DNA from: Acholeplasma laidlawii
GTDB lineage: Bacteria; Bacillota_I; Bacilli_A; Acholeplasmatales; Acholeplasmataceae
Length of the DNA stretch: 64,000 nucleotides
Assembly: GCF_015709225.1 (NCBI RefSeq)
Contig: NZ_JADNRS010000029.1
Location: forward strand, 1-64,000
Direction of reading: 5' to 3'
The notes beneath the pieces were generated by a model. It was not told the origin of the DNA and did not search any database. It saw only the letters and a list, made by a program, of their open reading frames with translations. Below, one piece after another: positions 17,442 to 61,210 of the stretch. Both the position numbers and the translations under genes were made by a program. Every line of letters begins with the position of its first letter. The first letter of the stretch is position 1.

Positions 17442-17866
17442 TACAAAATACGATATTAAACCAATTAAATGAAAAGGGATTTGTTGTATCTAAAATAAGA
17501 GGGGTAAGTATGTGGCCCTTCTTTAATCAAAAAAACACACAAGTCTACATCAAGCGCACGCCTAATTATAAAAAAAATGATTGTATATTATTTTTAAGAT
17601 TCAATGGCCAACTCATACTACACCGTATTTTAAAGGTAAAGGATGTCTACTTTTTAGTATCAGGTGATAATGAATCTGTCGTAGAAAAAGTTTATTTAGA
17701 ACAGATAAAAGGATGTGTTTTTGAATATTATAAACACGGTAAGACAAAAACACTTACAGGTTTTAGATACCATGTATACCTTATATTTATGAAACTTTGT
17801 CGCCCACTTAGAGTCTTAAGAGACTTTATTAAAAAGTTCATTAAGAAATTAATTGGTAGAAAATAG
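17438..17866 (+). CDS. S24/S26-type signal-peptidase-like protein
   Basis: 142 residues. 'VSKIRGVSMWPFF' (about residues 17-29) is the peptidase box with the nucleophilic Ser, and 'ILFLRFNGQLILHRILKVKD' holds a His (HRIL) where type I bacterial signal peptidases have the general-base Lys. A Ser-His pair is typical of SipW/ER-type and of S24/S26 proteins found beside peptide-maturation genes. There is no clear N-terminal membrane anchor; the C-terminus is basic and weakly hydrophobic ('YHVYLIFMKLCRPLRVL'). It overlaps the GGDEF remnant by 4 bases. The substrate is unknown and could be out of the window. Confidence 0.7.
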   Translation: MIQNTILNQLNEKGFVVSKIRGVSMWPFFNQKNTQVYIKRTPNYKKNDCILFLRFNGQLILHRILKVKDVYFLVSGDNESVVEKVYLEQIKGCVFEYYKHGKTKTLTGFRYHVYLIFMKLCRPLRVLRDFIKKFIKKLIGRK

Positions 17867-53891: not shown

Positions 53892-53920
53892 TTGTAAAGT
53901 TTTTGGAAGTATGATAATAT
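53892..53920 (+). promoter_or_regulatory. Promoter of the aromatic operon
   Basis: TTGTAA (53892-53897), 17-base spacer, TAATAT (53915-53920); 30 bases before the leader peptide. Confidence 0.65.
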
Positions 53921-53949
53921 ACTATCAACATAAGAAAGTTGGTCACATT

Positions 53950-53991
53950 ATGTTTATAAATCAAGCTTATTACTACTTTTATCAAATGTAA
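53950..53991 (+). CDS. Tyr/Phe-rich leader peptide of the aromatic operon
   Basis: 13 residues, M-F-I-N-Q-A-Y-Y-Y-F-Y-Q-M. Four of five consecutive codons are Tyr and one is Phe (53968-53982), as in tyr/phe attenuator leaders. The start region GGTCACATT (53941-53949) is complementary to 54044-54052. A weak AAGAAAG ribosome site lies at 53931-53937. The peptide precedes a terminator and the DAHP-synthase gene. It acts as a sensor of charged tRNA-Tyr/Phe rather than as a product. Confidence 0.8.
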   Translation: MFINQAYYYFYQM

Positions 53992-54077
53992 AAGGACTTG
54001 CAGCAAAGCGCATTCCTTTTTAAGTTATTAAAAGAAGTTAAGGAATGTGACCCCAGCATAAACAATTAATGATTATG

Positions 54078-54114
54078 ACTCCTTAAGGGCTACAAACCTT
54101 TAAGGAGTTTTTTG
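54078..54114 (+). terminator. Attenuator terminator before aroF
   Basis: ACTCCTTAAGGG (54078-54089) / CCTTTAAGGAGT (54097-54108), a 12-bp stem with one G-T pair and a T run of 6; 30 bases before aroF. Confidence 0.85.
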
Positions 54115-54143
54115 TTTCAAAAAATAGAAAGAGAGATAAAAAG

Positions 54144-55166
54144 ATGATTGTTCAAATGAAAAAAGGTGCAACTAAACAAGAAGTTAATCACTTGCAAAAA
54201 TATTTAATCAATAAAGGTTTTGGTATTAAAGATGCTTCAAGTGATGAAGTGACACTATTTGGTGTTTTAGGAGATGTGAAATCTTTAGATGCTGCACAAT
54301 TACGTGTATTTTCAGGTGTTGAGAATGTGACAAGAATTTCTAGTCCATTTAAGTTGGCTTCTAAAGCATTTAAAAAAGAACCAACCATTATCACCTTAAA
54401 AAATGGCGTTGTTATTGGTGGTGATGATTTTGTTGTTATGAGTGGCCCATGTAGTGTGGAAAGTGAAGAACAATTAAGAATTATTGCTAAAGCAGTTAAA
54501 GAAAGTGGTTCTAATGTTTTAAGAGGTGGTGTATTTAAACCACGTACTTCACCATATGCTTTCCAAGGATTAGGTATTGAAGGATTAAAAATGATGCGTA
54601 GAGTTGCGGATGAATTTGGTATGGCTATTATTACTGAACTTATGGGTACAGAGCACCTAGATGAATTCGTAAAATATGTAGATATCATTCAGTTAGGTGC
54701 AAGAAATATGCAAAACTTTGACCTACTTAAAGCTGTTGGTAAAACCAATATTCCAGTGCTTCTAAAAAGAGGTTTAAGTGCGACGATTGAAGAGTGGCTC
54801 ATGAGTGCAGAATACATTATGGCATCCGGTAATGATCAAGTTATCTTGTGTGAAAGAGGCATTAGAACCTTTGAAAAATACACGAGAAATACACTGGATA
54901 TTTCTGCTGTATTAGCAGTTAGAGAATTATCACACCTACCTGTAATTGTAGATCCGTCACATGCTGCAGGTAAATGGGAAATGATTGAATCTTTATCACT
55001 CGCATCACTTGCTGTTGAAGCAGATGGAATTATTGTTGAAGTACACCATGATCCAGAAAATGCACTATCTGATGGTGCACAAAGTTTAAAACCACAAAAG
55101 TTTGAACATATGATGGAACGTCTTGAAAAAGCTTCTACTGTATTTTCAAAACAATTGAAACGATGA
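54144..55166 (+). CDS. aroF: 3-deoxy-7-phosphoheptulonate (DAHP) synthase, type I-beta
   Basis: 340 residues. The N-terminal ferredoxin-like/ACT regulatory domain (1 to about 75) senses Tyr or Phe in homologues of the Thermotoga type. The TIM barrel carries 'VVMSGPCSVES', 'LRGGVFKPRTSPYAFQGLG', 'PVLLKRGLSATIEEWLMSAEYI', 'CERGIRTFEKYTRNTLD' and 'PVIVDPSHAAG'. First step of the shikimate pathway, from erythrose-4-P and PEP. GAGAGATAA precedes ATG 54144. Its own attenuator controls it. Later genes overlap or nearly touch. Confidence 0.96.
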   Translation: MIVQMKKGATKQEVNHLQKYLINKGFGIKDASSDEVTLFGVLGDVKSLDAAQLRVFSGVENVTRISSPFKLASKAFKKEPTIITLKNGVVIGGDDFVVMSGPCSVESEEQLRIIAKAVKESGSNVLRGGVFKPRTSPYAFQGLGIEGLKMMRRVADEFGMAIITELMGTEHLDEFVKYVDIIQLGARNMQNFDLLKAVGKTNIPVLLKRGLSATIEEWLMSAEYIMASGNDQVILCERGIRTFEKYTRNTLDISAVLAVRELSHLPVIVDPSHAAGKWEMIESLSLASLAVEADGIIVEVHHDPENALSDGAQSLKPQKFEHMMERLEKASTVFSKQLKR

Positions 55167-55996
55167 AGATATTTATTGTTGGACTTGGTCTTATGGGAGC
55201 AAGTTACGCTCAAAAATTAACAAGTGTCGGACACGATGTTTTTGGTTTTGATAAAGATAATAACACCAACTTAAAAGCGCTTAATGAAGGTGTTATAAAG
55301 GGTTACGATTTAAAGGATATGAAGCATAGTGAACTTGTCATACTTGCTTTATATCCAAATCAGATATTTGAATTTATCAAAACAAATATATCTTATTTTG
55401 ATACACAACTTATAACGGATATCAGTGGTACTAAAACTAAACTTCTAGATGAGGTGTTAAAATTACTACCTAAATCGATCAACTATGTCTCCCATCACCC
55501 GATGGCTGGTAGAGAAAAGTCGGGTTATGATCATAAAGATATAACTATGTTTAAAAATGCTAATTTTTTAATTATCGACTCACACCATTCAAAACCACAT
55601 CACATTGAAACAATTAAAAAACTAGGATTAGATTTAGGTTTTAAAAGACAAATTGTTTTATCTGCTTATGAACACGATGAACTCATTGCACATACATCTC
55701 AGTTAACGCATTTAATTGCGGTATCGTTAATGCTTATGAATAAAAATGAACACACAAAAGATGCTACTGGGGATTCATTTAGAGATTTAACAAGAATTGC
55801 AAATATTAATGAAATCTTATGGACAGAACTCTTTTTAGATAATAAGGACGCACTTACCCAAAAGATAGATGAATTTGTAGATGTTTTAGGTCAGCTTAAA
55901 CATGATATATTGACTTCAAATGAAGTGGTATTGAAAGAAAAACTTAAAGAATCTAAGAAAAGGAGAATTAGTTTTGATGAGACAAACACTCGATAA
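55163..55996 (+). CDS. tyrA: Prephenate dehydrogenase
   Basis: 277 residues. 'KIFIVGLGLMGASYAQKLTSVGHDVFGFDKD' is the Rossmann NAD site, 'YVSHHPMAGREKSGYDH' the TyrA substrate motif with catalytic His, and 'AHTSQLTHLIAVSLM' and 'GDSFRDLTRIANINEILW' are conserved. It makes 4-hydroxyphenylpyruvate, the tyrosine precursor. It has no ACT domain, so feedback must act elsewhere (for example at DAHP synthase or the attenuator). It overlaps aroF by 4 bases. Confidence 0.94.
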   Translation: MKIFIVGLGLMGASYAQKLTSVGHDVFGFDKDNNTNLKALNEGVIKGYDLKDMKHSELVILALYPNQIFEFIKTNISYFDTQLITDISGTKTKLLDEVLKLLPKSINYVSHHPMAGREKSGYDHKDITMFKNANFLIIDSHHSKPHHIETIKKLGLDLGFKRQIVLSAYEHDELIAHTSQLTHLIAVSLMLMNKNEHTKDATGDSFRDLTRIANINEILWTELFLDNKDALTQKIDEFVDVLGQLKHDILTSNEVVLKEKLKESKKRRISFDETNTR

Positions 55997-56975
55997 TTAT
56001 GAAGTAGTAGTTAAACAAAATTTAATGAATGATTTGGGTGGGGAGATAACTAGTGTATACCCTTATAAAGATATTTTTGTCATCACGGATCATAATGTAT
56101 TTAAACTGTATGAAAACTTATTAACAGCTAAGTTAAATATGTTTAATTTAAAGTTTGTAAGTGTTGAACCAGGTGAACAGTCAAAATCTATAACTACCTA
56201 TCAAGAAGTTGTTCAAAAATTACTTAAATTGGGTATGAGAAAAAATCATTTACTCATTGCCTTAGGTGGTGGTGTTGTAGGAGATTTAGCTGGATTTGTT
56301 GCAGCCACCTTATTTAGAGGTACACCATTTATTCAAATACCTACAACGTTACTTGCGATGGTAGATTCATCTATTGGCGGTAAAACTGGTTTAGATTTAA
56401 ATGAAGGTAAAAATTTAATTGGTGCATATAAAAATCCACTTAAAGTTTTAATTGATCCTGCATTTTTAGATACATTACCTAAAGTAGAGTATAAAAATGG
56501 ATTAGCAGAAGTATTAAAACATGGACTCATTGGTGATCCTAAATTATATGAATATTTAAAATTGAATGATAAATTAACGCTTAATGAAATCAAACGTGCA
56601 ATTCAAGTAAAGCTCAATATTGTTAAGAAAGATCCTTTTGAACAAAACGAACGTATGTTCTTAAATTTTGGGCACACCTTTGGACATGCAATCGAGCGTC
56701 ATTATGATTTTGCAATCAAACACGGTGTAGCAATTAGCTATGGTATGTTGATCAGTTTAGAATTAGGTATTAAAGCAAAGATTACACCAGCAAACTTATT
56801 TGATGACGTTAAAAATATTTTATTAAGATTAGAACTTGTTAAAGAACCTCTACTTGATAAAAAGTTATTTATAGAATACATAGGTTTTGATAAGAAAAAC
56901 TTAGCGGATGGTTTACGTTTTGTTTATATCAAAAACATTGGTGAACCAATCATTAATAAAGGGGTTGAAATTTAA
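55977..56975 (+). CDS. aroB: 3-dehydroquinate synthase
   Basis: 332 residues from ATG 55977 (MRQTLDNYEVVVKQNLM); AGGAG (55961-55965) is also well spaced for the TTG one codon earlier. 'LIALGGGVVGDLAGFVAATLFRG', 'IPTTLLAMVDSSIGGKTGLDLNEGKNLIG' and the metal ligands in 'NFGHTFGHAIERH' are intact. It cyclises DAHP to 3-dehydroquinate with NAD and a metal. It overlaps tyrA by 20 bases. Confidence 0.95.
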   Translation: MRQTLDNYEVVVKQNLMNDLGGEITSVYPYKDIFVITDHNVFKLYENLLTAKLNMFNLKFVSVEPGEQSKSITTYQEVVQKLLKLGMRKNHLLIALGGGVVGDLAGFVAATLFRGTPFIQIPTTLLAMVDSSIGGKTGLDLNEGKNLIGAYKNPLKVLIDPAFLDTLPKVEYKNGLAEVLKHGLIGDPKLYEYLKLNDKLTLNEIKRAIQVKLNIVKKDPFEQNERMFLNFGHTFGHAIERHYDFAIKHGVAISYGMLISLELGIKAKITPANLFDDVKNILLRLELVKEPLLDKKLFIEYIGFDKKNLADGLRFVYIKNIGEPIINKGVEI

Positions 56976-56976
56976 A

Positions 56977-58218
56977 GTGCTAGAAATTATTCCAACCAAT
57001 TTATCAGGTGAAGTAAAGATTGTTTCTTCTAAATCTTTATCACACAGATATGTACTTGCAGCAGCACTTGCACATGGACAATCAAAGATTGATAATATTT
57101 TAGACTCTGATGATTTAATCGCCACACAAAGCGCTTTAAAAAGCTTAGGTGCAAGCATTAATCAGGGATTGATTACAGGTGGTAAGGTTCAAAGAGTACA
57201 TGATACTATTGATTGTTTTGAGTCTGGTTCTACATTAAGATTTTTAATACCTGTAGCAATGCTTCAAGATAAACCTGTGACATTTACGGGTAAAAATCAA
57301 TTACCATTTCGTACTCAAGAAATGTATGAAAACCTTTTTAAAGAAACTTATCAATTTGAGCATCCAACAGATAAGTGGTTACCGCTTACTGTAAGTGGTC
57401 CACTTAAAGGTGGCACATATCACTTAAGAGGTGATGTAAGTAGTCAGTTTATTACAGGCTTACTTTATGCTTTACCACTTGCACCAAATGATTCTGAAAT
57501 TATTTTAACTTCACACTTAGAATCTGTTGGTTATGTCGATATGACTTTAGATGTATTAGACAAATTTGGTATTAAGATTATTAAAACTTCAAACGGTTAT
57601 AAGATACCTGGGAACCAACACTATAATCCAGGTAACTATCGTGTAGAAGGTGATTTTAGTGGTGCAGCATTTTTTGTTGCAGCAGGATTACTTGCTGGAC
57701 CAATCCACTTAACGAATTTAAATCACCATAGTTTACAAGGTGATAAGGAAATTATTGATCTTGCAATTAAGATGGGTGGAGATATTACGCCTACGAGTGA
57801 AGGTTATCTGGTTAAACCATCTAGATTAAAGGGTATTTCTATTGATGTTGGACAAATTCCTGATTTAGGTCCGATTCTTATGGTACTTGGTGCGCTTGCT
57901 GAAGGTACCACAATTATTCATAACGCATCTAGATTACGTATCAAAGAATCTGATAGATTAAATGCTATGGTAACAAATCTTCAAGCACTTGGTGCAAACA
58001 TTAAAGAAATTGGAGATACTGTAGAAATTAAAGGGGTAAGTCGACTTATAGGCGGCACATTAGTTTCAAGTTATAAAGATCATAGGATAGCAATGTCAAT
58101 GGCGATTGCCTCCATAATGTGTGAACAACCAATTACACTTGATGATGAGACCGTAGTATCTAAAAGTTATCCAAATTTCTTTGAAAGTTTTAAAGCATTA
58201 GGAGGTCAAGTGAAATGA
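56977..58218 (+). CDS. aroA: 3-phosphoshikimate 1-carboxyvinyltransferase (EPSP synthase)
   Basis: 413 residues from GTG 56977, one base after the aroB stop; AAAGGGG lies upstream, and the protein then begins LEIIPTNLSGEVKIVSSKSLSHR. 'SSKSLSHRYVLAAALA', 'FESGSTLRFLIPVAM', 'GDVSSQFITGLLYALP', 'LRIKESDRLNAM' and 'SYKDHRIAMSMAIAS' are the substrate loops. It joins PEP to shikimate-3-P. It overlaps the next gene by 4 bases. Confidence 0.95.
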   Translation: MLEIIPTNLSGEVKIVSSKSLSHRYVLAAALAHGQSKIDNILDSDDLIATQSALKSLGASINQGLITGGKVQRVHDTIDCFESGSTLRFLIPVAMLQDKPVTFTGKNQLPFRTQEMYENLFKETYQFEHPTDKWLPLTVSGPLKGGTYHLRGDVSSQFITGLLYALPLAPNDSEIILTSHLESVGYVDMTLDVLDKFGIKIIKTSNGYKIPGNQHYNPGNYRVEGDFSGAAFFVAAGLLAGPIHLTNLNHHSLQGDKEIIDLAIKMGGDITPTSEGYLVKPSRLKGISIDVGQIPDLGPILMVLGALAEGTTIIHNASRLRIKESDRLNAMVTNLQALGANIKEIGDTVEIKGVSRLIGGTLVSSYKDHRIAMSMAIASIMCEQPITLDDETVVSKSYPNFFESFKALGGQVK

Positions 58219-58469
58219 GTTTAGAACCTTTAAGAAATGAAATTGATAAAGTAGATAAAGAACTTGTCAAATTATTAGAGCGCCGTTTTGAGTTAGTGAA
58301 AGAAATTGGCGACTATAAGAAGTTACATAACCTACCTGTACTTGATCTTGCAAGAGAACAACAAGTACTCCAAAAGAAAAAGAAACAACTCACCAATAAA
58401 GACTTATGGCCGCACTTTGAAAAGTTGTTTCAACATATTATGAATATCTCAAAAGAATTAGAAAAATGA
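58215..58469 (+). CDS. aroQ: Chorismate mutase, AroQ type
   Basis: 84 residues, a stand-alone all-helical mutase. 'LEPLRNEIDKVDKELVKLLERRFELVKEIGDYKKLHNLPVLDLAREQQVLQK' has the Arg, Lys, Glu and Gln residues of the AroQ active site. It turns chorismate to prephenate for TyrA. No prephenate dehydratase is attached or nearby. It overlaps neighbours on both sides by 4 bases. Confidence 0.9.
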   Translation: MSLEPLRNEIDKVDKELVKLLERRFELVKEIGDYKKLHNLPVLDLAREQQVLQKKKKQLTNKDLWPHFEKLFQHIMNISKELEK

Positions 58470-59248
58470 AAGTATTTGGTTTAATTGGCCATCCCTTAGG
58501 GCACTCCAAGTCGCCTAAACTACATAAAATCATTGGTAGTTATTTTAGTAGACAACTAGCGTATCGATTATTTGATATAGATCATATCGATGAAGTAAAA
58601 CCATTGATTGAAGGGTTAAAAAACGGCACATATCATGGCTTTAATGTAACAATTCCATATAAGGAAGCAGTGCTTCCCTTTTTGGATCTTATGACACCAA
58701 AAGCTCAAAAAATAGGTGCGGTAAACACCATCTATTTTAAAGATAATCAAGTCATTGGTGATAATACAGATTATGATGGTTTTTTATATTTAATGGAACA
58801 GCAACTTGCTATAAAAAAAATCATAAAACCTATTATATTAGGTAGTGGTGGTGCAGCAAAATCAAGTTATACAGTGTTAAAAGATCTTGGATTTGATACG
58901 GTTGTGGTATCAAGAAATCCAAAGGATAACCAGCACTTTAATCAAATTATAAGTTATGATAAACTACTAAGTTATTCATATGATTTGGTAGTAAATACAA
59001 CACCGATCGGGATGCACCCAAATATTAACCAATCACCACTTGATGAAAGTCTAGTGCGCGATAAATTTGTTATAGATCTCATATATAATCCACTTGAGAC
59101 TACATTAATGAAATATGCTAAACATAGCATTGGTGGACTTGATATGCTGATTGTTCAAGCATTTAAAGCTCAAAATATATGGTTTGGTGAAGAAAAAGAA
59201 TTAAAAGATGATATATTAAATCATATCAAGGAGGACTTATATGAATAG
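58466..59248 (+). CDS. aroE: Shikimate dehydrogenase
   Basis: 260 residues. 'GLIGHPLGHSKSPKLHKIIGSYF' and 'GFNVTIPYKEAVLPFLD' (catalytic Lys), 'GAVNTIYF', 'GDNTDYDGF' (catalytic Asp), 'LGSGGAAKSSYTVLKDLGF' (NADP site) and 'DLIYNPLETTLMKYA' are all seen. It reduces 3-dehydroshikimate. The gene for 3-dehydroquinate dehydratase (aroD/aroQ type II) that should supply its substrate is not in this operon. Confidence 0.95.
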   Translation: MKVFGLIGHPLGHSKSPKLHKIIGSYFSRQLAYRLFDIDHIDEVKPLIEGLKNGTYHGFNVTIPYKEAVLPFLDLMTPKAQKIGAVNTIYFKDNQVIGDNTDYDGFLYLMEQQLAIKKIIKPIILGSGGAAKSSYTVLKDLGFDTVVVSRNPKDNQHFNQIISYDKLLSYSYDLVVNTTPIGMHPNINQSPLDESLVRDKFVIDLIYNPLETTLMKYAKHSIGGLDMLIVQAFKAQNIWFGEEKELKDDILNHIKEDLYE

Positions 59249-60227
59249 TTTTGGCACTTTATTTAAAGTAACTTTATATGGTGAATCACATCAAGATGCT
59301 ATAGGAATCGTCATTGATGGTGTAAAACCCGGTCTTAAAATTAACTGGGAGGATGTAGAACTTGATCTAGCTAAAAGAAGACCAGGTGCTGTAGGCACAA
59401 CACCAAGAGTTGAAAAAGATAAACTAGAAGTTACATCTGGTATGTTTAATGAATATACTACAGGTTCTCCACTACATATAATGATTAGAAATGAAAATGT
59501 CATTTCTAAAGATTATAGTCATCTAAAAAGTCAACCAAGACCAGGGCATGCAGACTTTGTTGCTGGTATTAAATATCAAGGGTTTCATGACTACCGAGGT
59601 GGTGGTCGCTTTTCTGGTCGACTAACAGCACCACTAGTGGTTGCAGGTAGTATTGCAAAACAAATGTTACCATTTGAGTTTAGTCATGAACTGATTCAAG
59701 TTGGATCTCTTACAGATATGTCACAACTCGATGCATATTTACGGGAAGTACACAACCAAGGAGAATCTGTTGGTGGTATCGTTGAAGTCCGAGTAAAAAA
59801 TATGGTGGTCGGACTAGGTGAACCTATGTTTGAAAAGTTAGATGCTAAAATTGGTCAAATGATGTTTTCTATACCTGCTGTTAAAGGTGTTGAAATTGGT
59901 ACAGGGTTTAGTGGTGCAAACCTTTATGGTTCTCTGTTTAATGATGTCTATGAAGATGAAACTGGAAAGACTTTAACGAATCATTCTGGTGGTGTATCTG
60001 GTGGTATTTCTAATGGTAATGATTTAATCGTAAAGGTTTTTGTTAAGCCAACTAGCAGTATTGGTAAAGTACAATCTTCATTCAATTTAGAAAGCAAACA
60101 AAAACAGACTTTTGAAATTGGTGGTAGACATGATACTGCAATTGTAAGACGTGTAGGTATTGTATTAGAAAATGCACTAGCTATTTGTTTAGCAGATTTA
60201 TATTTATGGAGTAAAATATACAAATGA
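59241..60227 (+). CDS. aroC: Chorismate synthase
   Basis: 328 residues, shorter than the usual 360-390. 'FGTLFKVTLYGESHQDAIGIVIDGVKPGL', 'RPGAVGTTPRVEKDKLEVTSGMFNEYTTGSPLHIMI', 'RPGHADFVAGIKYQGFHDYRGGGRFSGR' and 'GRHDTAIVRRVGIVLENALAICLADLYL' keep the FMN- and EPSP-binding residues. The loss appears to be in surface loops in the middle. It releases phosphate from EPSP to give chorismate. It overlaps aroE by 8 bases and the next gene by 4. Confidence 0.95.
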   Translation: MNSFGTLFKVTLYGESHQDAIGIVIDGVKPGLKINWEDVELDLAKRRPGAVGTTPRVEKDKLEVTSGMFNEYTTGSPLHIMIRNENVISKDYSHLKSQPRPGHADFVAGIKYQGFHDYRGGGRFSGRLTAPLVVAGSIAKQMLPFEFSHELIQVGSLTDMSQLDAYLREVHNQGESVGGIVEVRVKNMVVGLGEPMFEKLDAKIGQMMFSIPAVKGVEIGTGFSGANLYGSLFNDVYEDETGKTLTNHSGGVSGGISNGNDLIVKVFVKPTSSIGKVQSSFNLESKQKQTFEIGGRHDTAIVRRVGIVLENALAICLADLYLWSKIYK

Positions 60228-61210
60228 TGTTTTATAAACAAGTGTTACACACAACAATTAAATTAGTCGTTGTAGCAATCATATCCGCAACCATTGCCTA
60301 TTTTGTAGGTATTAAAGACTACATACTTGTTGGTACAATAGGTATTTTATCTGTCTCACTTACGAAAAAGGACACCATCAGAGATAACATCAATAGATAT
60401 CTAGATGTATTATTAGGTTTAGCACTATCTGCATGTACCTTCTTTATATTTGGTTTTAATTTATATGCGCTGATTGTATTTTTAATACTATTTATATTTG
60501 CATCATATGCCTTTAAAATAAACATTGGGTTAATTCCTGCACTTGTTTTAGCTAAACATTTATTTGATGCACAAAATATCGAATGGCTATTTATTTTTGA
60601 ACGTGTTGTAATTATTACAATTAGTGTTGGTACAGCACTCATTATGAATATGCTATATCCTGAGTTTCATAATAAACGTATGATTTATTATGTTACTGAA
60701 GTTGATCAAAAATTAAAAGACCATCTGTTTATGTTAAGTATATATCTAGTTAAAAAAGAAGGCAGAAAAGATTTCTTAAAACATTACGATTTGTTAAATG
60801 ATGAGATCAGCAAAATGATCATGCTTGCTGAAGCGAGTGATAAAGATAAGTTATTTGATAATGATCATAGATATCTTGCATATCTTTATATGCGACGTAA
60901 TCAGTTAAACTATATTAACAATATGTATCAAAGTGTTAAAAGAATGCACATTTCACATCCGTATGAAAATATCATCTCAGACTATATTAGAGAACTTATT
61001 GCAGATATTGGTGTAGATGATAAAGCCACTAAACAATTAAATAAACTAGATAACATGAAAAAGGTGTTCAAAGAAGAATCTCTACCTCAAACAAGAGTTG
61101 AATTTGAAACGCGTGCATTACTATTTCATATGTTGGAAGATTTAGAAGAACTACTACATGTTAAGGTGAAATTTCATGAACGTTACCCTAACTTCATGTT
61201 AACACTTTAA
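60224..61210 (+). CDS. Putative aromatic-acid exporter family membrane protein
   Basis: 328 residues. The N-terminal part has about four to five membrane helices ('HTTIKLVVVAIISATIAYFVGIKDYILVGTIGILSVS', 'ALSACTFFIFGFNLYALIVFLILFIFASYAF', 'VVIITISVGTALIMNMLYPEF'). The soluble C-terminal half is helical. This is the ArAE_1/DUF939 (FUSC-like) plan of aromatic-acid exporters. It overlaps aroC by 4 bases, so it belongs to the aromatic operon and may export pathway intermediates or products. Substrate unproven. Confidence 0.75.
   Translation: MMFYKQVLHTTIKLVVVAIISATIAYFVGIKDYILVGTIGILSVSLTKKDTIRDNINRYLDVLLGLALSACTFFIFGFNLYALIVFLILFIFASYAFKINIGLIPALVLAKHLFDAQNIEWLFIFERVVIITISVGTALIMNMLYPEFHNKRMIYYVTEVDQKLKDHLFMLSIYLVKKEGRKDFLKHYDLLNDEISKMIMLAEASDKDKLFDNDHRYLAYLYMRRNQLNYINNMYQSVKRMHISHPYENIISDYIRELIADIGVDDKATKQLNKLDNMKKVFKEESLPQTRVEFETRALLFHMLEDLEELLHVKVKFHERYPNFMLTL

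Follow-up and report, generated by a model that had tools for sequence, protein, structure and literature searches.

A probable peptide-leader attenuator sensing tRNA-Tyr charging in front of the aromatic operon of Acholeplasma laidlawii

Results

The DNA considered here, called the window below, is a stretch of 64,000 nucleotides from Acholeplasma laidlawii (NCBI RefSeq assembly GCF_015709225.1, contig NZ_JADNRS010000029.1, positions 1 to 64,000 of the forward strand). It contains an aromatic operon that opens with the gene for DAHP synthase and continues with prephenate dehydrogenase (tyrA), aroB, aroA, chorismate mutase, aroE, aroC and an aromatic acid exporter. The gene for prephenate dehydratase, pheA, sits on another contig of the same genome, and no leader is seen in front of it. 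The features of the operon and of its leader are collected in Table 1. Elsewhere in the window, 6704-6836 matches the ribosomal protein L10 leader RF00557 with 69.8 bits, an autoregulatory leader of the ordinary kind.

Table 1. Aromatic operon of the window and features of its leader; pairings are named by segment number, T being the terminator.
Feature	Position	Strand	Remarks
Putative promoter	53892..53920	+	-35 TTGTAA (53892-53897), -10 TAATAT (53915-53920); by eye
Segment 1, GUUGGUCACAUU	53938..53949	+	Immediately 5' of the leader ATG, on its RBS region; partner of segment 4
Leader ORF, MFINQAYYYFYQM	53950..53991	+	42 nt, 13 codons and stop; read from the sequence, conserved in relatives
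Segment 2, AAAAGGACUUGC	53990..54001	+	Begins within the stop codon; 5' arm of hairpin 2:3
Segment 3, GCAUUCCUUUUU	54010..54021	+	Almost invariant; partner is segment 2 or 4
Segment 4, UUAAGGAAUGUGACCCC	54038..54054	+	Exclusive pairing with segment 1, segment 3 or the terminator
Small hairpin CAUAA/UUAUG	54057..54077	+	Predicted fold; between segment 4 and the terminator
Intrinsic terminator	54078..54113	+	Stem 54078-54089 with 54097-54108, 12 bp, then U run
Antiterminator pairing 4:T	54087..54100	+	Loop-proximal terminator part, duplex with segment 4; 4:T co-variation
DAHP synthase	54144..55166	+	Ferredoxin-like N-terminal domain; Pfam PF00793, PF18152; first operon gene
Rest of operon	55163..61210	+	Pfam matches; ORFs overlap or abut

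The putative promoter has a spacer of 17 nt and a TG upstream of the -10 element, and would place the transcription start at about 53926-53928; a consensus scan with a threshold of 9/12 matches did not pick it up. In most relatives a promoter-like TTGT..TGATA is found, followed by a conserved CAAACA. The leader ORF begins with the codons ATG TTT ATA AAT CAA GCT and ends with CAA ATG TAA. Between them, at codons 7-11 (53968-53982), lies the Tyr-Tyr-Tyr-Phe-Tyr run TAT TAC TAC TTT TAT, as the preliminary description of this DNA had reported for a 13-residue ORF. When the upstream region was shuffled 2000 times at the dinucleotide level, only two of the shuffles contained a short ATG ORF with at least four Tyr in seven residues.

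The same description had placed a 12-bp terminator 30 bases before DAHP synthase and mutually exclusive stems in front of it, with 54038-54052 complementary to three other segments, and both statements hold. The terminator has the loop CUACAAA and ends some 30 nt before the ATG of DAHP synthase, and segment 4 forms duplexes with segment 1, segment 3 and the terminator. In segment 1 its complement is GGUCACAUU (53941-53949), which precedes the leader ATG, and in segment 3 it is GCAUUCCUU (54010-54018). In the terminator it can pair with the 5' arm together with the loop, at about 54087-54100, or with UCCUUAA within that arm. Above the 1:4 pairing, the Tyr codons pair with the linker 54028-54042. 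The 194-nt leader has a predicted folding energy of -46.2 kcal/mol, compared to -31.6 +/- 4.0 kcal/mol for shuffled sequences (z = -3.7), and none of 200 shuffles is as stable. Hairpin 2:3 (53990-54021) is followed by a U run of its own. The small hairpin downstream of segment 4 would fall within the antiterminator loop, and by eye similar hairpins are present in several relatives.

We now consider how widely the element occurs. A DNA search matches all eight genomes of the genus. For the wider searches, a covariance model, R1, was built from the leader. DAHP synthase is present in 53 of the 88 genomes of the family, and R1 matches 46 of these 53. The seven genomes without the element have divergent copies of DAHP synthase, at most 60% identical, and the element is found in all 46 family genomes with a closely related one. 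At the divergent loci L133, L134 and L136, no such leader is seen. Outside the family, R1 matches six genomes of the sister family f5 (genus g21) and five of family f16, which belongs to another order; every one of these that was inspected is directly followed by the DAHP synthase gene. No genome has more than one true match. Two further matches, in G115 (L181) and a second one in G073 (L182), have no DAHP synthase downstream and were rejected as false positives.

The family matches give 43 distinct leaders from nine genera, and all of them keep the Tyr run, the stop codon, hairpin 2:3, segment 4 and the terminator. A lack of conservation of codon run and stems in relatives would have spoken against the preliminary description; both are instead conserved through the family and beyond it. 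At the loci of genera g3, g15 and g5 (L100, L114, L116 and others), conserved tandem palindromes TACTGTGT..ACACACTACTA..TACTGTGCAAAACACAATACC were also noticed, some 250-330 nt 5' of the DAHP synthase gene. They separate the aro leader from a divergent gene, which encodes a membrane protein with recurring hydrophobic segments. From their sequence, the palindromes look like an operator.

In nearly all leaders of the family, segment 2 begins at the stop codon or immediately downstream of it. Its hairpin with segment 3 beats 95% of shuffles in 41 of the 43. Segment 4 follows the pattern GGA(A)n..CC(A), and its partner is GG..UUCC of the terminator, a stretch that takes in the loop and the start of the 3' arm. 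The two change together, as in GGAGAU/AUCUCC (L108), GGAC/GUCC (L129) versus GGAAC/GUUCC (L131), GGAAUGG/CUAUUCC (L099) and UUGGAAG/CUUCCAA (L135).

To quantify this, duplex energies of each lineage's own pairings were compared with those of pairings swapped between lineages, over all 40320 permutations of eight groups; genera with a like segment 4 were merged, g3, g9 and g15 sharing one. The own 4:T pairings average -11.7 kcal/mol and the crossed ones -8.2 kcal/mol (p = 1.2e-4), and for 1:4 the values are -14.9 and -10.0 kcal/mol (p = 2.5e-5). The signal for 2:3 is smaller (p = 0.03). Little co-variation is seen for 3:4 (p = 0.07) because segment 3 hardly varies. The controls were null, with p from 0.21 to 0.93 (segment 4 with the promoter or with the post-terminator region, the leader with the small hairpin or with the terminator, and the linker with the promoter or with the post-terminator region). 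A covariance search across Acholeplasma leaders had been proposed together with the preliminary description, and the two exclusive pairings 1:4 and 4:T do co-vary at the level of lineages.

It should be added that a shuffle test of 4:T with the terminator 5' arm and loop only gave no signal. The antiterminator pairing extends into the beginning of the 3' arm as well, and the support for 4:T comes from the wider terminator window and the lineage-swap test. RNAalifold on a family-wide MAFFT alignment gave only a weak result (11 pairs, -2.8 kcal/mol), because the alignment does not bring segment 4 and the terminator into register across genera and the stems exclude each other. Duplex energies computed segment by segment, together with the lineage-swap test, were used in its place.

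Discussion

On the basis of the conserved sequence features and the folding models, we consider it very probable that the element is a ribosome-mediated transcription attenuator that responds to how far tRNA-Tyr is charged and regulates the aromatic operon of the Tyr branch. The switch would be segment 4. In a leader without a ribosome it would pair with segment 1, enclosing hairpin 2:3, and the terminator would form. When Tyr-tRNA is plentiful, a ribosome at the stop codon would cover segment 2, which leads to pairing 3:4 and again to the terminator. When Tyr-tRNA is scarce, a ribosome stalled on the Tyr codons would block the pairing of segment 1, so that 2:3 forms, and segment 4 would be free to pair as an antiterminator with the loop-proximal part of the terminator, allowing the operon to be transcribed. 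We infer that the ORF is translated, that ribosomes stall in it, that the terminator is read through, and that all of this depends on Tyr.

The position of segment 1 differs between lineages. In genera g3, g9, g13, g15 and g5 it (GGCUGU and variants) lies mostly within the ORF, just before the Tyr codons, and the segment 1 of family f5 passes through these codons. Its strong part is placed over the RBS region, 5' of the leader ATG, in Acholeplasma (g1) and g14, and the pairing of g10 and g11 covers the RBS and the start codon, with further pairs that extend into the ORF.

Both arrangements were folded as truncated transcripts under a ribosome mask, with 2:3 pre-formed, and the mean pairs of the 13-nt core were counted. 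For the in-ORF leaders, the model without a ribosome gives 6.9 pairs for 1:4 and 1.4 for 4:T. With the ribosome stalled at the first Tyr codon 4:T rises to 6.7 (6-7 at the first or second), and with the ribosome at the stop codon 3:4 dominates with 5.3 pairs while 4:T has 2.0. For the window's leader, an exclusion of 23 nt upstream of the P site gives 0.0, 8.2 and 0.0 pairs of 4:T without a ribosome, stalled and at the stop, respectively, whereas with 13 nt the 1:4 pairing persists. As a group, the RBS-type leaders show clear antitermination in the model only with an exclusion of about 23 nt and with 2:3 already formed. Since the outcome depends on the exclusion length, it is for the window an inferred step that the stalled ribosome frees segment 4. 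It would do so by keeping the RBS segment unpaired, and candidates for how this comes about are steric exclusion beside the ribosome or occupancy of the RBS.

These results bear directly on the alternative that competes best, in which the main switch in Acholeplasma is the leader's own RBS and pairing 1:4 shuts off leader initiation. The outcome would then be set by RBS occupancy instead of Tyr stalling, the Tyr codons determining how long the blockage lasts. The window's segment 1 occupies positions -12 to -1 relative to the ATG, the pairing in g10 and g11 covers RBS and start, the footprint of a ribosome stalled at Tyr codon 7 extends only to about the ATG, and the mask model does not flip at short exclusion, all of which agree with this alternative. 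We nevertheless judge it unlikely, as most genera, and family f5 too, have segment 1 inside the ORF, where it adjoins or covers the Tyr codons, and a single shared ancestral mechanism is simpler. Somewhat less doubtful, and suggested here tentatively, is a mixed form for Acholeplasma and some relatives, in which the location of the anti-antiterminator segment on the RBS leads to gating by leader initiation in addition to stalling. If so, related genera would show an attenuator whose wiring has been rearranged with input and output unchanged.

Returning to attenuation by stalling at Tyr codons, the next question is the amino acid. The preliminary description had proposed attenuation through the charging of tRNA-Tyr and tRNA-Phe; the attenuation and the Tyr part are supported, and the Phe part is not. 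A Tyr-rich ORF of 12-16 codons is found in all 43 distinct family leaders, each with Tyr in its last nine residues, where in total 178 Tyr compare with 16 Phe and Phe is absent from 28 of the 43. YYY occurs in 36, and the others have for example TYRYHNL, YYFSY or VYAYTY. Both TAT and TAC occur at every position of the run. The conserved signal therefore points to Tyr, and not to Phe or to Tyr and Phe. That Phe is sensed, alone or jointly with Tyr, as was proposed for the published candidate uORFC-13-1 (the Phe reading is put forward in the description in PMC8632094), has in its favour the one Phe within the window's run and the Phe at codon 2 of many leaders. TTT codons occur near the start in many leaders; at the codon run they are not a conserved feature. 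The divergent leaders of other families retain Tyr (SYYYYY, SYFYYY, TYYY or NYY), and the operon contains tyrA while pheA is elsewhere, which together with the 28 leaders makes a Phe signal very improbable.

Leaders that act as metabolite riboswitches or bind a protein exist for amino-acid genes generally, and in such a case translation of the ORF would not be needed. The high conservation of segment 3 and the alternative stems would fit. Every leader, however, has a start codon, Tyr codons and a stop codon placed at segment 2, and outside segment 3 it is the complementarity that is conserved rather than a binding pocket. There is also no match to any Rfam family, apart from meaningless weak ones on the opposite strand. 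We consider such a mechanism highly improbable.

A T-box riboswitch for tRNA-Tyr, finally, can be practically dismissed. The mechanism is available in this genome (13 T-box matches elsewhere, which serve as positive control), but RF00230 does not match the window at the curated threshold, nor is it among the weak matches of the leader at permissive thresholds. Eight of the 13 are above the curated cut-off. Judged by eye from their sequences, the genes behind four of the T-boxes look like alaS, pheS, serS and metS, and the gene behind a fifth like one for a transporter binding protein. Tandem T-box matches (G000:C4:17364-17572 and 17595-17720, L137) precede an apparent amino-acid ABC transporter binding protein gene.

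Comparison with known systems

The T-box shares with the aro leader that tRNA charging is sensed and a terminator controlled, and differs in that it has a specifier loop where the aro leader has a presumably translated ORF. Wall-less bacteria with reduced genomes probably use trp-style attenuation for the aromatic operon and T-boxes for aminoacyl-tRNA synthetase genes.

By its text description, the element is the published candidate uORFC-13-1 (RNA Biol 2021, PMC8632094), which comprises 24 sequences from the genus Acholeplasma upstream of aroF, beside an intrinsic terminator. The description in PMC8632094 proposes attenuation with Phe as the suggested signal and gives at least one Phe codon in a U run of the uORF. 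The two agree in genus, in the position directly before the DAHP synthase gene (aroF), in a uORF with promoter, RBS and start, and in the adjoining terminator. They differ in that the description in PMC8632094 has Phe as signal and includes no three-way switch, whereas the present analysis gives Tyr, the exclusive pairings 1:4, 3:4 and 4:T with co-variation, and two further families. In the literature searched, uORFC-13-1 is named in no paper besides PMC8632094, and neither attenuation nor riboswitches come up in a study of A. laidlawii promoters (PMC5138195); Rfam 15 has no match to the element. The element itself is thus already known, and what is added is Tyr as the signal, the switch with three alternative pairings, the evidence of co-variation, a wider range and the shift in position of segment 1. 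The model would explain a published but unexplained candidate RNA and correct its likely signal from Phe to Tyr.

Peptide attenuators are also known for His in Firmicutes, namely in the B. cereus group, relatives of C. difficile and Erysipelotrichales (PMC9413887). Like the aro leader, they are found in low-GC Gram-positives at an operon without a T-box; they differ in having His codons, in serving the his operon and in occurring in other taxa. Among 74 distant DAHP synthase loci, we find 11 with an upstream ORF that has at least five Tyr/Phe in seven residues; the rate in shuffles is 1.1%, and the reverse strands give 2 of 74. The statement in the preliminary description that low-GC Gram-positives usually use T-boxes or TRAP instead is, in view of the His leaders and these 11 loci, too strong, and aroF peptide attenuation may, as far as sequence tells, be common in Firmicutes. 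Tyr/Phe-rich short ORFs in the 330 nt upstream of DAHP synthase were noticed at L036, L037, L046, L065, L076, L082 and L084, in Clostridia and relatives (examples are MKKQNGHGYYGYYRYSDSGLL and MKKQNLSVYAYYFYFSYEVA), in several cases followed by terminator-like hairpins. In Holdemania there is a leader ORF MLKIKLNHSYYYY (L079, 330 nt upstream of DAHP synthase), and the RNA downstream of it has no obvious likeness to that of Acholeplasma. With more than 50 natural variants of shifted wiring, the aro leaders make the rules of peptide attenuation testable outside enteric bacteria.

In the trp, pheA and his leaders of enteric bacteria, a run of codons for the end product is translated and a stalled ribosome selects the antiterminator, while the terminator forms both with the ribosome at the stop codon and without a ribosome. 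The aro element would share the codon run and all three outcomes. The likeness to enteric attenuators drawn in the preliminary description is borne out by mask folding for the in-ORF leaders; the window's segment 1 lies over the RBS and not the Tyr codons, so that the simple trp-like logic needs an extra assumption there. By analogy with the trp 1:2 hairpin, hairpin 2:3 may be a pause site that couples ribosome and polymerase. The aro element matches no Rfam leader family, and it differs from the enteric leaders in that segment 1 overlaps the leader RBS in some lineages, that hairpin 2:3 is nested within 1:4, and that segment 4 has three mutually exclusive partners.
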